A stretch of 34,230 bases of DNA from an uncultured Alphaproteobacteria bacterium (GTDB lineage: Bacteria; Pseudomonadota; Alphaproteobacteria; Rs-D84): NCBI GenBank assembly GCA_944390125.1, contig CALXOX010000004.1, positions 87,875 through 122,104 on the forward strand, written 5' to 3'. The position numbers and the translations under genes are program-made. Position 1 is the first letter of the stretch; every line of letters begins with the position of its first letter. This document shows positions 5,166-26,929 of this stretch, piece by piece. Below the pieces are notes generated by a model that worked only from the letters and a program-made list of their open reading frames with translations, ran no database searches and had not been told where the DNA came from.

Positions 5166-5852
5166 TTATTGTATGTATGAGCAAGGACCACTCAGAACAA
5201 ATATGCCACTTAAATCTTGATACGTTCTGTAAGTTTCTGGTATAGCACTTGAAATTGGTCCAACATTACAATCTGTTATTGTATAGCTGGGAGCTTTAGA
5301 ATTATCTGTCAAAGTTATGTAGTTATTTGCTGTCCAACCACATAATTGGGCGCCACCGTATGTCGCATACGTATTGTCAACGCATGGGCATTTTTTACAC
5401 GCACCATCAGTAGAAGCCGTCATAAGTTGCCTACTGCCATAATAACTAAGATTACAAAAACAATATAAATTCTCACAAGTATATGAATAAGTACCATCTC
5501 CATTATCAGTTTTTTTGTACGATTTGCCGCTATTCTTATCATAAACTGTAATTTGATTAGGATCATCGCATTTACATTTGTTTACGATATCTATTGTCGC
5601 ATTTGTTATACAACAGTATCTATAGTTACTATCCACACCAAATTTACTACACAAATCTGCTACAACCATTGAACCATTATACGTTGAACCGTATTGGCTC
5701 TTACACCACGAAGAACATTGAGGCGCAACAACAGAATTGTTACCTGTTTTTGGACACTCCGCCGCGAAACCGACTGTTGATGTGTATACTCCTGCAAATG
5801 ATTCAAATTCAACTAAAAACAAAAACATTAAAAATAATAAGATACTTCTCAT
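5166..5852 (-). CDS. Cysteine-rich secreted protein, function unknown
   Basis: The start is taken at ATG 5852 behind a GGGGGA ribosome-binding site; an in-frame TTG 12 bases upstream overlaps that site and is less likely. The 228-residue product begins with a signal peptide (MRSILLFLMFLFLVEF..FAG), and the mature part is crowded with cysteines in pairs and short spacings (CSSWCKS, RYCCI, CKCDD, CFCN, CKKCPC). This suggests an extracytoplasmic, disulfide-stabilised protein. I do not recognise a family. It resembles the other cysteine-rich secreted proteins of the window (23378-26929 and 33358-34230) in style but not in clear sequence. A structured element ending in a terminator hairpin lies directly upstream and may control it. 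Confidence 0.75.
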   Translation of the reverse strand: MRSILLFLMFLFLVEFESFAGVYTSTVGFAAECPKTGNNSVVAPQCSSWCKSQYGSTYNGSMVVADLCSKFGVDSNYRYCCITNATIDIVNKCKCDDPNQITVYDKNSGKSYKKTDNGDGTYSYTCENLYCFCNLSYYGSRQLMTASTDGACKKCPCVDNTYATYGGAQLCGWTANNYITLTDNSKAPSYTITDCNVGPISSAIPETYRTYQDLSGIFVLSGPCSYIQ

Positions 5853-5872
5853 CTTTTCCCCCAAAAAATCTT

Positions 5873-5902
5873 AAATTAAAAACCGCCAAAAGTTGTGGCG
5901 GT
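5873..5902 (-). terminator. Intrinsic terminator or attenuator upstream of the cysteine-rich gene
   Basis: On the minus strand ACCGCC (5902-5897) pairs with GGCGGT (5887-5882) around a 9-base loop, followed by TTTTTAATTT. It lies about 20 bases before the ATG at 5852. It could end a small RNA coming from about 6118, or act as an attenuator in the leader of the downstream gene. Confidence 0.6.
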
Positions 5903-6098
5903 CGGGGAGTTCAAAAAATCATAATCAAAGAAATGACCCCGTTGGTCTTCGAACTAAAATTCTATTTTATAACCAACAGCTCCCCGACCAATGGTCGGGG
6001 CGTACAACAAAAAAGGCGTTTCAACACGCCACAGTTGTACTGCGGATACGGTGTTTCTTAACATCGCTTTGATTATGGGCTTTTTGACGACCCCGAAC
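5901..6098 (-). ncRNA. Structured element with about 30-bp imperfect inverted ends (small RNA, leader RNA or MITE)
   Basis: The left arm (5901-5930, GTCGGGGAG...CATAATCAAAG) and right arm (6067-6098, CTTTGATTATG...CCCCGAAC) are inverted copies with few mismatches. The innermost 11 bases, CATAATCAAAG/CTTTGATTATG, pair perfectly. Inside are further hairpins: GTTGGT/ACCAAC (5941-5976), CCCCGACC/GGTCGGGG (5983-6000), and GTACAAC/GTTGTAC (6002-6040) enclosing GGCGT/ACGCC. Read on the minus strand, that GGCGT/ACGCC hairpin is followed by six Ts. A promoter-like pair (TTGTTT, TATACT) lies upstream at 6122-6150, and a terminator hairpin follows at 5902-5873. No convincing coding frame crosses it. I do not recognise a known RNA family; a mobile MITE is the main alternative. 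Confidence 0.55.
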
Positions 6099-6121
6099 CC
6101 AATATCCCTTTGGATTCGTAT

Positions 6122-6150
6122 AGTAGTATAATATATATTTAATTCGAAAA
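6122..6150 (-). promoter_or_regulatory. Promoter reading into the structured element
   Basis: On the minus strand TTGTTT is followed after 17 bases by TATACT (near 6127-6122). Transcription would start near 6115, enter the inverted-repeat element and continue toward the cysteine-rich gene. Confidence 0.5.
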
Positions 6151-6157
6151 CAAGTAG

Positions 6158-23377: not shown

Positions 23378-26300
23378 TTACTTCATACTATCGTCATAAA
23401 CGGAATATGTAGTGCCGCTAGACTTTATCTTCAGACTTCCGACAGTTGACGTTCCCATATTGCCATAGAAAGTCTTACCACTGATGCTAACATTCAGTGA
23501 AGGAGTAGTCTTCTTGTCGCTGCGCAGGTAAATTTTTTCACCATTTACGTTCAATACACGTCCACAGTCTCCAGCCTCGTCAGCGCCCGCGCCAGAACCA
23601 ATTGTTGTCAGTCCTGCATCACAAGCATTACGTACCCCTGCGCTACCTTGCGAAACAGTCGAAGCAGCCGCCCAATAACCAGCCCCAACATCTTCACAAG
23701 AAGTGTCATTCGCCGCTGCTATATACGCACCGCCACTGCAATAAATCTTACAGTCACTTGCTGCATCATGATTTGTTGCCGCAGTACCAGTAATTGTATA
23801 GTTGGTCAAGCAGCTGTTTACGCTACTCGTACTACCTTGTGCTACGCTGTGCGCGCCAACATACCAGTTACCACTAGGAGTTGTGCAGGCTGCATTAGCA
23901 CTTACTACTCGTGTACCAGCACTACAACTTATCTTACAATCAGTTGACGCATCGTGGTCAGTCTTTGTCGTCGTATCAGCAGTTGCATATCCAGATACAC
24001 AAGATTTTACATTTGTTCCAGATGTAGAGCCTGCGGATACTGTATGTGTCCCAGTATACCAGCTACCATCGGGTGTTGTACATGCTGCATCCGCGCTAAC
24101 AACCTGCGTACCAGCACTACAACTTATCTTACAATCCGACTTAGCATCATGATCAGCTGCCGTTGTACCACTTATAGTATAACTTGCTGGGCAAGACGTC
24201 GCTGCCGGCGATGTAGAACCATAAGCAACACTATGTGCGCCAATATACACATTGCCGCTTGTTATCGCCGAGCAAGCCGCATTAGCAGAAGTCACACGAT
24301 AACCACCAGAACAGCTTATTTTACACTGACTTGCGGAGGTCTTTCCTGCTGTAGTTGTTTCATCGTCATAGTTCGTAGGACAATTATTTTTTACACCCCC
24401 ACCACAATACGTTGCACCTGTACACTGTGACTGACCTGTACGAGTTGTTTCTGTACCACCAGTTGAATAATAACCACTGGAAACATTGTTTCTTACACCA
24501 CCGCTGCAATAATACGCATTTCCACCACAAGCAGACTGATTTGTACACTTGTTACCACTTGTGTCACAACCAGTTGTATAATATCCAGCACTTACGGTAC
24601 TGCACGCGCTAGCACCAGCCAGACTATACTTTGTGCGTCCTGAACAAGCTGAGCAACTTGTAGCAGTACTGCCATCAGTTCCTTGATACGTACCGGCAGA
24701 ACATTGGCTGCAGGTCTGACCGTTTACATATGCCCCAGCTTCAGCCTTTAATGCCGTAGTTATGCTGGCGCTGCCCCATGCACTCGCACTAGACTGAGCC
24801 TTCGTTAGTACACCAGCTGTACAGTAACTGCTTATCGCTATACCTGTCTTGGTCTCTTTACATGACGCGTAACTCGTCCAACCAGTACCACTAGCCTTCG
24901 TCCATCCACTCTCAACATCTAAACACGCCGTACAACTCGAAGCCCCAGCTGATGAGTATGTCCAGTTGGCACACGTACTACATGATGTCGCACTGCCTCC
25001 AGCGCTATATTTACCAGCACCACACTGTGTACAGGTCGCGCTAGACGTGTTGTTACCTGATATTATATAACCACCCCTCGCAGTAACCGCATAGGTCGAT
25101 GCAGGCCATGCACTACCGCTATAAGATACTGTGTTGCTCGTAACGGTCGAACAGCCAGTAATGGTCTTGCTCGGCGCCTTATATCTACAAGTCGTAGACG
25201 CATTGTACGGTGATACAGAACTATACGTTCCACCACTCGGTGATACACCACTTAGTGAACTACAAGAACTCCTTGAAGTAGAGGTAGCGTTTTGTGCAAC
25301 TCTTATTGAATACGTCGTATAATAACCACTACCAACAGATACACATCCACCACCAGCAGTAGGTACATATTCCCCAGCGTCACATTTCACTTTACATGAC
25401 GCTACACCGGCATGGCTTGATGCGGTTGTACCACTGTTACCATAGCCATTTGTTGTATTACACGAAGTGCAGCTCGCCGCACCAGCATTAGAGTACGTGT
25501 TCGTCGAACAGACCGAGCAACTTGTAGCAGTACTGCCATCAGTTCCTTGATACGTACCGGCAGAACATTGGCTGCAGGTCTGACCGTTTACATATGCCCC
25601 AGCTTCAGCCTTTAATGCCGTAGTTATGCTGGCGCTGCCCCATGCACTCGCACTAGACTGAGCCTTCGTTAGTACACCAGCTGTACAGTAACTGCTTATC
25701 GCTATACCTGTCTTGGTCTCTTTACATGACGCGTAACTCGTCCAACCAGTACCACTAGCCTTCGTCCATCCACTCTCAACATCTAAACACGCCGTACAAC
25801 TCGAAGCCCCAGCTGATGAGTATGTCCAGTTGGCACACGTACTACATGATGTCGCACTGCCTCCAGCGCTATATTTACCAGCACCACACTGTGTACAGGT
25901 CGCGCTAGACGTGTTGTTACCTGATATTATATAACCACCCCTCGCAGTAACCGCATAGGTCGATGCAGGCCATGCACTACCGCTATAAGATACTGTGTTG
26001 CTCGTAACGGTCGAACAGCCAGTAATGGTCTTGCTCGGCGCCTTATATCTACAAGTCGTAGACGCATTGTACGGTGATACAGAACTATACGTTCCACCAC
26101 TCGGTGATACACCACTTAGTGAACTACAAGAAGAACGCCCCTGTGCCCCGCCATTATAAGTCCATGTACCCCCAATACAATAATATGGCGATGTACACGA
26201 AGTACAGGTTGCACCATTCAAATACTGTCCCGCAGAGCACGTATAACTTCTAGCAGAACAAGAACTAGTTACACTCGTTGCACCGGTGCTCCCTGTCGCA

Positions 26301-26929
26301 GTAAATGACGTAGTTGTATTTGTGCCACCTGATTGGCTATAGCCAGTATTACAGGTTATTGTTGCACGTGGTGCATTGCTACTTGGCGTTGTAATACTAC
26401 AAGAACCATTTGTTGCACTACAAGTCGGTGTAACCCACACAGCATAATACGTTGCAGCAGCAGATGGCGTTATTGTAGTAACACCAGACGTTGCAGTACT
26501 ACTCGTAGACCACCCCTTAAATATCTTATTCCCATTAGTCATGGAACATGTAGAACTGTTCCATGACGGCAAAGAACAACTTGAACCTGGGGTACAAGTA
26601 ACACTACCAGCAGTAGTACTGGACGTACCACCACACGTACCTGTTCCGCCATTTTTATTTAACGTAATTTTAACTGTATTTGCCTTAGGACAAACCAAAC
26701 CACCCGTACATGTATAACCAGGCGGACATGCTTTACAAGAGTTTCCCGTCGTCAAACTGCTTGAAGATATAGTTTGACCGTTCCAAGTACTACCACAATT
26801 GGAAATATAGTACCCGGAATTACAACTTGTATACTTCATATATGTTGGACACGAATACCCCGCAGCCAAAGCATTTCCAACAAAAATAAGCATAAATAAA
26901 CAAGCTAGATAACGTAGTATTTTTGACAT
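23378..26929 (-). CDS. Giant cysteine-rich surface protein with internal duplication
   Basis: The 1183-residue secreted protein has a signal peptide (cleaved near NALAA). An early Cys-rich module with a 'CPPGYTCTGG' motif is followed by an InlB-B-repeat-like domain (about 85-165, ITLNKNGGTGTCGG...KIFKGW...YYAVW). Long arrays of GYY..., C..C and 'CSAGTYQGTDGSTATSC' modules come next, similar to GCC2/GCC3 (ephrin-receptor-like) repeats. Residues about 266-472 and 554-760 are encoded by an identical 618-bp repeat. The C-terminal half has three or four repeats of about 60 residues containing SCKISCSAGT and GAHSVA-like motifs. A Cys-free C-terminal segment of about 60 residues (NVNGEKIYLRSDKKTTPSLNV...) could be an attachment or secretion domain. 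Its function is probably adhesion or surface coat; enzyme motifs are absent. Confidence 0.9.
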   Translation of the reverse strand: MSKILRYLACLFMLIFVGNALAAGYSCPTYMKYTSCNSGYYISNCGSTWNGQTISSSSLTTGNSCKACPPGYTCTGGLVCPKANTVKITLNKNGGTGTCGGTSSTTAGSVTCTPGSSCSLPSWNSSTCSMTNGNKIFKGWSTSSTATSGVTTITPSAAATYYAVWVTPTCSATNGSCSITTPSSNAPRATITCNTGYSQSGGTNTTTSFTATGSTGATSVTSSCSARSYTCSAGQYLNGATCTSCTSPYYCIGGTWTYNGGAQGRSSCSSLSGVSPSGGTYSSVSPYNASTTCRYKAPSKTITGCSTVTSNTVSYSGSAWPASTYAVTARGGYIISGNNTSSATCTQCGAGKYSAGGSATSCSTCANWTYSSAGASSCTACLDVESGWTKASGTGWTSYASCKETKTGIAISSYCTAGVLTKAQSSASAWGSASITTALKAEAGAYVNGQTCSQCSAGTYQGTDGSTATSCSVCSTNTYSNAGAASCTSCNTTNGYGNSGTTASSHAGVASCKVKCDAGEYVPTAGGGCVSVGSGYYTTYSIRVAQNATSTSRSSCSSLSGVSPSGGTYSSVSPYNASTTCRYKAPSKTITGCSTVTSNTVSYSGSAWPASTYAVTARGGYIISGNNTSSATCTQCGAGKYSAGGSATSCSTCANWTYSSAGASSCTACLDVESGWTKASGTGWTSYASCKETKTGIAISSYCTAGVLTKAQSSASAWGSASITTALKAEAGAYVNGQTCSQCSAGTYQGTDGSTATSCSACSGRTKYSLAGASACSTVSAGYYTTGCDTSGNKCTNQSACGGNAYYCSGGVRNNVSSGYYSTGGTETTRTGQSQCTGATYCGGGVKNNCPTNYDDETTTAGKTSASQCKISCSGGYRVTSANAACSAITSGNVYIGAHSVAYGSTSPAATSCPASYTISGTTAADHDAKSDCKISCSAGTQVVSADAACTTPDGSWYTGTHTVSAGSTSGTNVKSCVSGYATADTTTKTDHDASTDCKISCSAGTRVVSANAACTTPSGNWYVGAHSVAQGSTSSVNSCLTNYTITGTAATNHDAASDCKIYCSGGAYIAAANDTSCEDVGAGYWAAASTVSQGSAGVRNACDAGLTTIGSGAGADEAGDCGRVLNVNGEKIYLRSDKKTTPSLNVSISGKTFYGNMGTSTVGSLKIKSSGTTYSVYDDSMK
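24651..25268 (-). repeat. Perfect 618-bp direct repeat, copy 1
   Basis: Identical in every base I compared to 25515-26132, at an offset of 864 bases. It lies in frame inside the cysteine-rich gene (206 codons). The unique sequence between copies is 246 bp. Confidence 0.92.
25515..26132 (-). repeat. Perfect 618-bp direct repeat, copy 2
   Basis: The partner of 24651-25268. The identity of synonymous positions implies a recent duplication or ongoing gene conversion; recombination between copies would remove exactly 288 codons. Confidence 0.92.

Follow-up and report, generated by a model that had tools for sequence, protein, structure and literature searches.

The question raised by this locus is what a nested inverted repeat with its own promoter and terminator does in front of a gene for a cysteine-rich secreted protein. 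It lies in a 34,230-nucleotide stretch of DNA (the window) from an uncultured alphaproteobacterium, and a first-pass annotation had left it as an unrecognised fold that could be a riboswitch or attenuator, an independent small RNA or a MITE. The element is the 5′ leader of the cysteine-rich secreted-protein gene (5852-5166). On the minus strand, a promoter is followed by a structured leader of about 240 nt, a U-run, a Shine-Dalgarno sequence and the ATG at 5852 (Table 1). The promoter TTGTTT-17-TATACT is exactly where it had been claimed (6153-6125). The long inverted arms are real, 6087-6067 pairing with 5930-5911 to form one helix of 8 bp and one of 11 bp, and they adjoin a 5′ hairpin (6117-6095). 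The proposed intrinsic terminator was confirmed as a terminator-like hairpin (5903-5881) that runs into a U-run upstream of the ribosome-binding site (RBS) and the ATG. The overall description, a structured RNA with promoter and terminator of its own and the layout of an attenuator or small RNA, was upheld. An inner GGCGT/ACGCC hairpin with T6, offered as a second stop, is present in the window; its sequence and U-run are not kept in all copies.

Table 1. Features of the leader element and its gene (window coordinates)
Feature	Position	Strand	Basis or remark
Sigma-70-type promoter	6125..6153	minus	sequence reading; position and spacing kept over 78 copies
−35 box TTGTTT	6153-6148	minus	spacer to −10 box 17 nt
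−10 box TATACT	6130-6125	minus	
Complete RNA leader element	5881..6118	minus	covariance model R1, 198.1 bits, full length; score not independent, as the window copy is among the sequences used to build R1
5′ hairpin P1 (GAAUCCAA ... UUGGGUUC; loop with conserved GGGA)	6095..6117	minus	covariation
Leader target (decoy) segment, complement of the copy's own antisense segment	6067..6087	minus	covariation
Segment B (CCCCGACC), possible partner of segment C	5993..6000	minus	minimum-energy fold; weak covariation
C4-like domain, RF02221 (sRNA-Xcc1) match	5892..5989	minus	37.4 bits, cut-off 53
Segment C (GGUCGGGGAG), 5′ strand of the closing stem	5980..5989	minus	C:D covariation
Antisense segment, counterpart of C4 loops a′/b′	5911..5930	minus	covariation
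Segment D (CUCCCCGACC), 3′ strand of the closing stem, then GCCA	5900..5909	minus	
Terminator-like hairpin GACCGCCA...UGGCGGUU, then U-run	5881..5903	minus	covariation
Downstream gene (predicted to be regulated): 228-aa Cys-rich protein, hydrophobic N-terminus	5166..5852	minus	no Pfam family found

The minus strand from 6110 to 5860 folds at −89.1 kcal/mol, compared with −63.9 ± 4.7 for 200 shuffled sequences, none of which was as low (z −5.4). The plus strand of the element is also well folded (z −6.4), as expected of any inverted repeat, and the strand was therefore assigned from relatives.

These relatives are numerous. The window's genome has a size of about 0.9 Mb, and its closest named relatives by xseA are MAGs of Candidatus Enterousia, which belongs to the alphaproteobacterial order Rs-D84, an order with reduced genomes (PMC12306168, published in 2025). 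Copies of the element were found by BLASTN in the window's genome and in 21 of 40 relatives, and profile searches started from them gave 68 full-length copies, 65 of them distinct. Within the genus, the covariance model R1, whose E-values are rough, detected the element in 87 of 96 genomes. It also matched every one of the 19 genomes listed for the rest of the family and, more weakly, a second family of the order; the genomes compared are mostly MAGs. In the window's own genome, 18 R1 matches less two reverse-strand echoes leave at least 16 places, one of them a truncated copy. Within the genus, a genome can hold up to at least 22 copies, and all copy numbers are lower bounds, 15-22 candidates having been scored per genome in the wider searches. 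The copies are scattered over contigs and not arrayed, and an integron-like array was rejected. No match to the window element was found by BLASTN in phage records.

Individual copies vary in arrangement and type. In G000, two tandem copies lie 77 bp apart upstream of a 65-aa ORF (L232/L229; C1:384374-384537 and 384615-384783), the first having no gene of its own. Copies L228-L236 and L238 of the same genome form a second subtype (GGUUGGAGGGC or UCAGGAGGGC..GAAUAUAUUGAAUAAGC..CCUCCAACC or CCUCCUGACC), the arm of which seems nearer to that of phage RF02221 than the arm of the window subtype.

The fold is supported by covariation, which the first-pass annotation had set against dispersed identical copies as the mark of an RNA. 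In an alignment of 30 sequences, the fold composed of P1, A:D, decoy:antisense and terminator has 92.1% of its cells paired and changes on both sides in 24 of 39 pairs, and its covariation score is 0.469 as against 0.06-0.10 with the partners slid; the model, the alignment and the window copy are not independent of one another. The decoy:antisense helix has both-side changes in 14 of its 19 pairs. P1 has them in six of eight pairs, and the terminator hairpin in four of eight, with 99.5% of its cells paired. In permutation tests, which count the copies as independent although some are related, own partners bound better than swapped ones for the decoy:antisense helix (z −22), P1 (z −11.4), the terminator arms (z −10.5) and an alternative closing stem, C:D (z −10.6). 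The arm helix (P8) is supported as well, and the pairings A:D (z −2.4) and B:C (z −1.6), both seen in the minimum-energy fold, are weakly supported. The last four bases of segment D, GACC (5903-5900), are also part of the terminator, so C:D and the terminator compete for them.

The pairing is also largely copy-specific. In one genome, the antisense segments pair with their own leaders at a mean of −18.7 kcal/mol and with other leaders at −11.3. The own pairing is the best in its row for just 10 of 15 copies, the other five fitting some other leader better, and cross-talk between copies is therefore possible.

The fold, which the first-pass annotation did not recognise, has a known relative in its 3′ part, though below the threshold of the family. 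Nothing in Rfam reached a gathering threshold at the element, and by E-value RF02221 (sRNA-Xcc1) was the sole significant match (minus strand, 5989-5892; 37.4 bits against a cut-off of 53; E 7e-5 in 701 bases and 3e-5 in 321 bases). All 87 model positions (1-87) are aligned (E 3.3e-5), with the closing stem, the arm and the third hairpin matched. The L10 leader, speF and Bp1_738 matches of the same kind of search were at chance level. RF02221 also matches further copies in the genus; the best score in the window's genome is that of another copy (50.7 bits), and a single locus of the genus exceeds the cut-off (57.8 bits), a phage-type one before a Rha-like gene. RF02221 matches occur in 58 of 398 genomes of the phylum and in none of 14 control genomes. 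By sequence, the 3′ domain of the Enterousia leader is a distant relative of RF02221. The two share the C:D closing stem, an arm with an AAUA/GAAUA-like internal loop, a third hairpin, the single strand before D, an NCC(A) tail, the position in front of a gene, and a 5′ segment that pairs with the antisense segment. The Rfam model covers the 3′ domain only, unlike the full Enterousia leader, and at RF02221 loci, too, the RNA extends beyond the model and has a 5′ segment that pairs with the stretch preceding D. A same-strand gene lies downstream of most genomic RF02221 loci.

In Xanthomonas, Northern blotting and end mapping identified sRNA-Xcc1 as a discrete RNA of 88 nt (PMC2996969), and it lies upstream of symE in cassettes (PMC12444791). 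In the literature, it is treated as a trans-acting small RNA, and its homologues have been discussed as virulence or cross-kingdom RNAs (PMC12189769; PMC2996969). The RF02221 loci suggest another role. C4 RNA of phages P1 and P7 is built of three stems and three loops, and RNase P cleaves it at the 5′ end of the closing stem; target mRNAs are bound through the loops a′ and b′, of which b′ covers the RBS (PMC5320573). RF02221 follows this plan when set beside the c4-2 consensus. At 24 genomic RF02221 loci, the antisense binds its own RBS region at −18.8 kcal/mol, with permuted partners at about −14.5 (z −7.6, 0 of 2000 permutations), and at 52 non-redundant viral or proviral loci the values are −18.0 and −14.2 (z −9.9, 0 of 2000). 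Furthermore, 34 of 45 proteins downstream of viral loci match KilA-N, Bro-N, P22_AR_N, pRha or AntA. Because the antisense fits its own RBS and the cargo is of the antirepressor type, RF02221 is read as a putative C4-type antisense RNA of antirepressor leaders. No paper equating the two was found in a search limited to open-licence papers, and the C4 families RF01695 and RF02944 gave no match at the window element or at the RF02221 loci tested. Elsewhere, in L092, a c4-2 RNA (RF02944; 2958-2890, minus strand) precedes a Rha-like gene, and an RF02221 leader (1585-1501, minus strand) precedes a P22_AR_N antirepressor about 1.3 kb downstream, giving two C4-type leaders within one prophage region.

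In the Enterousia element, too, a long stem closes a structure of three stems and three loops. The element resembles C4 (RF01695; RF02944, c4-2) in carrying the antisense in a hairpin loop and single strand and in being encoded in the leader of the gene that it controls or, in Enterousia, would control. In contrast to C4, it has no RBS target, and its 5′ hairpin, long leader and terminator are additions. The Enterousia antisense shows no specific fit to its own downstream RBS (z −2.0, 49 of 2000 permutations); in the window's own genome it binds its own RBS at −12.0 and those of others at −12.1, so the classical C4 target is missing. Its fit to its own 5′ leader segment (z −22) is stronger than at phage-type loci (z −11). 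The phage-type loci keep the RBS target and differ in their cargo genes, and a terminator-like hairpin after D is found in 92% of Enterousia copies as against 10% of viral loci, with a mean of −12 kcal/mol and 6.6 U in the next ten bases in Enterousia. The RBS target was lost in Enterousia and a true terminator gained in exchange. Multicopy C4-like RNAs with a variable specificity segment are also described in a bacterial genome, as Group 1 of Acinetobacter baumannii (PMC5320573). These are described as sRNAs, whereas the Enterousia elements are leaders 26-33 nt before secreted-protein genes and have an upstream target within the same leader.

The window element is probably a domesticated phage C4-type antisense attenuator, encoded in cis, with a private specificity for each gene. 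The computations establish how it is built, that its helices covary, that the antisense mostly favours its own leader, that the element is linked to a gene, and that the RBS target is gone and a terminator has been added; processing by RNase P, a trans action and the direction of the switch are presumed. Transcription would start about 6 nt past the −10 box and give a leader of some 240 nt. This leader would contain the target segment, a C4-like domain made up of the closing stem C:D, an arm whose internal loop is conserved, and the antisense segment, and finally the terminator, immediately upstream of the RBS. Target and antisense segments would pair in cis; alternatively, C:D would close the C4-like domain and rival the terminator for GACC. 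By analogy with C4, this domain would be excised, probably by RNase P at the start of segment C (5989), and the resulting small RNA would act on new leaders of the same gene through their target segment, which would set how often polymerase passes through the terminator. In 40 of 60 copies, GCCA, GTCA or ACCA comes after the closing stem, which by sequence alone is consistent with RNase P processing of the 5′ end. In partition-function calculations on the free leader, decoy pairing and terminator dominate. Blocking the decoy, as a mimic of the bound small RNA, raised C:D in only 17 of 59 copies and loosened the terminator in 14, from which activation would follow. Repression is tentatively preferred because of the precedent of phage immunity. 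In phage P4, CI RNA immunity relies on an antisense RNA that acts on its own leader and causes premature transcription termination, and the same logic would apply if the Enterousia antisense terminates its own leader. Unlike in P4, no downstream second target was found in Enterousia.

The kinship with RF02221, whose Xanthomonas member is a discrete RNA (PMC2996969), and the C4 plan, which is that of a trans-acting RNA, argue against a purely cis-acting attenuator, the folds of which would be switched by a protein, a ligand or the kinetics of transcription and translation with no small RNA in trans. This account is rather unlikely; in its favour, antisense and target lie on one transcript, so cis pairing accounts for the covariation without a trans step, no RBS target is left in Enterousia, and the free leader already has the decoy pairing and the terminator. 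The pairing, however, is copy-specific and changes fast, which fits nucleic-acid recognition better than one ligand and points to antisense recognition rather than a ligand riboswitch. No riboswitch family of Rfam was above its cut-off at the element; a c-di-GMP-II match lay outside it at chance level (E 1.9).

The positions of promoter and ORF mark the copies as leaders. A −10 box with at least five of six matches is present in 64 of 78 copies (63 of 390 random positions), 57 copies have a promoter spacer of 17 nt, and 45 have the end of the box 6 nt upstream of the element. A same-strand ORF lies within 120 nt in 72 of the 78 copies; 70 have a same-strand Shine-Dalgarno sequence and ORF, with a median gap of 29 nt (IQR 26-33), compared with 113 of 589 random positions. 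The N-terminus is hydrophobic in 56 of 72 downstream proteins, as against 21 of 101 background ORFs, and the cysteine content is 4.1% as against 1.75%. Other downstream products are a glycosyltransferase, DNA methyltransferases, a GIY-YIG protein, a UvrD-type helicase and an outer-membrane barrel. The product of the gene after one copy (L233; G000:C1:39975-40187) carries two ribosomal L7/L12 C-terminal domains (PF00542) and is putatively secreted. The window also encodes a putative secreted, Cys-rich protein of 1183 aa with repeats and a long internal duplication (23378-26929, minus strand); no RNA element of this family was found upstream of it.

The junction between xseA and recN illustrates the linkage. 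It is essentially empty (gap of up to 75 bp) in 25 of 70 relatives with both genes in view, and it holds the RNA and one gene, in a spacer of about 0.9-1.03 kb, in the window and in L116, L120, L140, L159 and L170; L124 and L125 have a weaker copy in the opposite orientation. Orthologues of the 228-aa protein adjoin the RNA at this site in L116 (61% identical) and L120 (52%). RNA and gene are gained or lost as one unit. Comparison of filled and empty junctions by eye revealed no target duplication or terminal repeat. An independent small RNA acting in trans, with the gene behind it incidental, is very improbable given this joint presence or absence and the regular distance to the ORF, even though the element has its own promoter and terminator and sRNA-Xcc1 has been handled as trans-acting in the literature. 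A MITE or other mobile palindrome, as the first-pass annotation had also suggested, would be dispersed, multicopy and terminally inverted like the element, and can practically be dismissed: the copies are about 70-76% identical with compensatory changes, keep a fixed 26-33 nt to the ORF start, are gained and lost with a gene, and lack visible terminal repeats or target-site duplications at the occupied and empty site.

For RF02221 itself, the homologues in prophage antirepressor leaders suggest a primary role other than virulence or cross-kingdom signalling. Despite its annotation as a trans-acting sRNA, the family may mainly be the antisense domain of phage antirepressor leaders.

Genomes of Rs-D84 bacteria measure about 0.9 Mb, yet the window's genome devotes some 16 long RNA leaders, a lower bound, to secreted and accessory genes. 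If the proposal is true, an antisense mechanism of phage immunity has become a scalable collection of gene switches, each private to one gene, which would also appeal to synthetic biology. Should the released RNA work in trans, a cassette would also recognise a second copy of itself; the cassettes would then behave like prophages with their own immunity, and surface proteins could be switched one by one. It is conceivable, though less likely than not, that a genome-reduced genus runs up to about 20 mutually distinct antisense switches per genome as a heritage of phage immunity, one for each secreted, surface or defence gene and gained or lost together with it.
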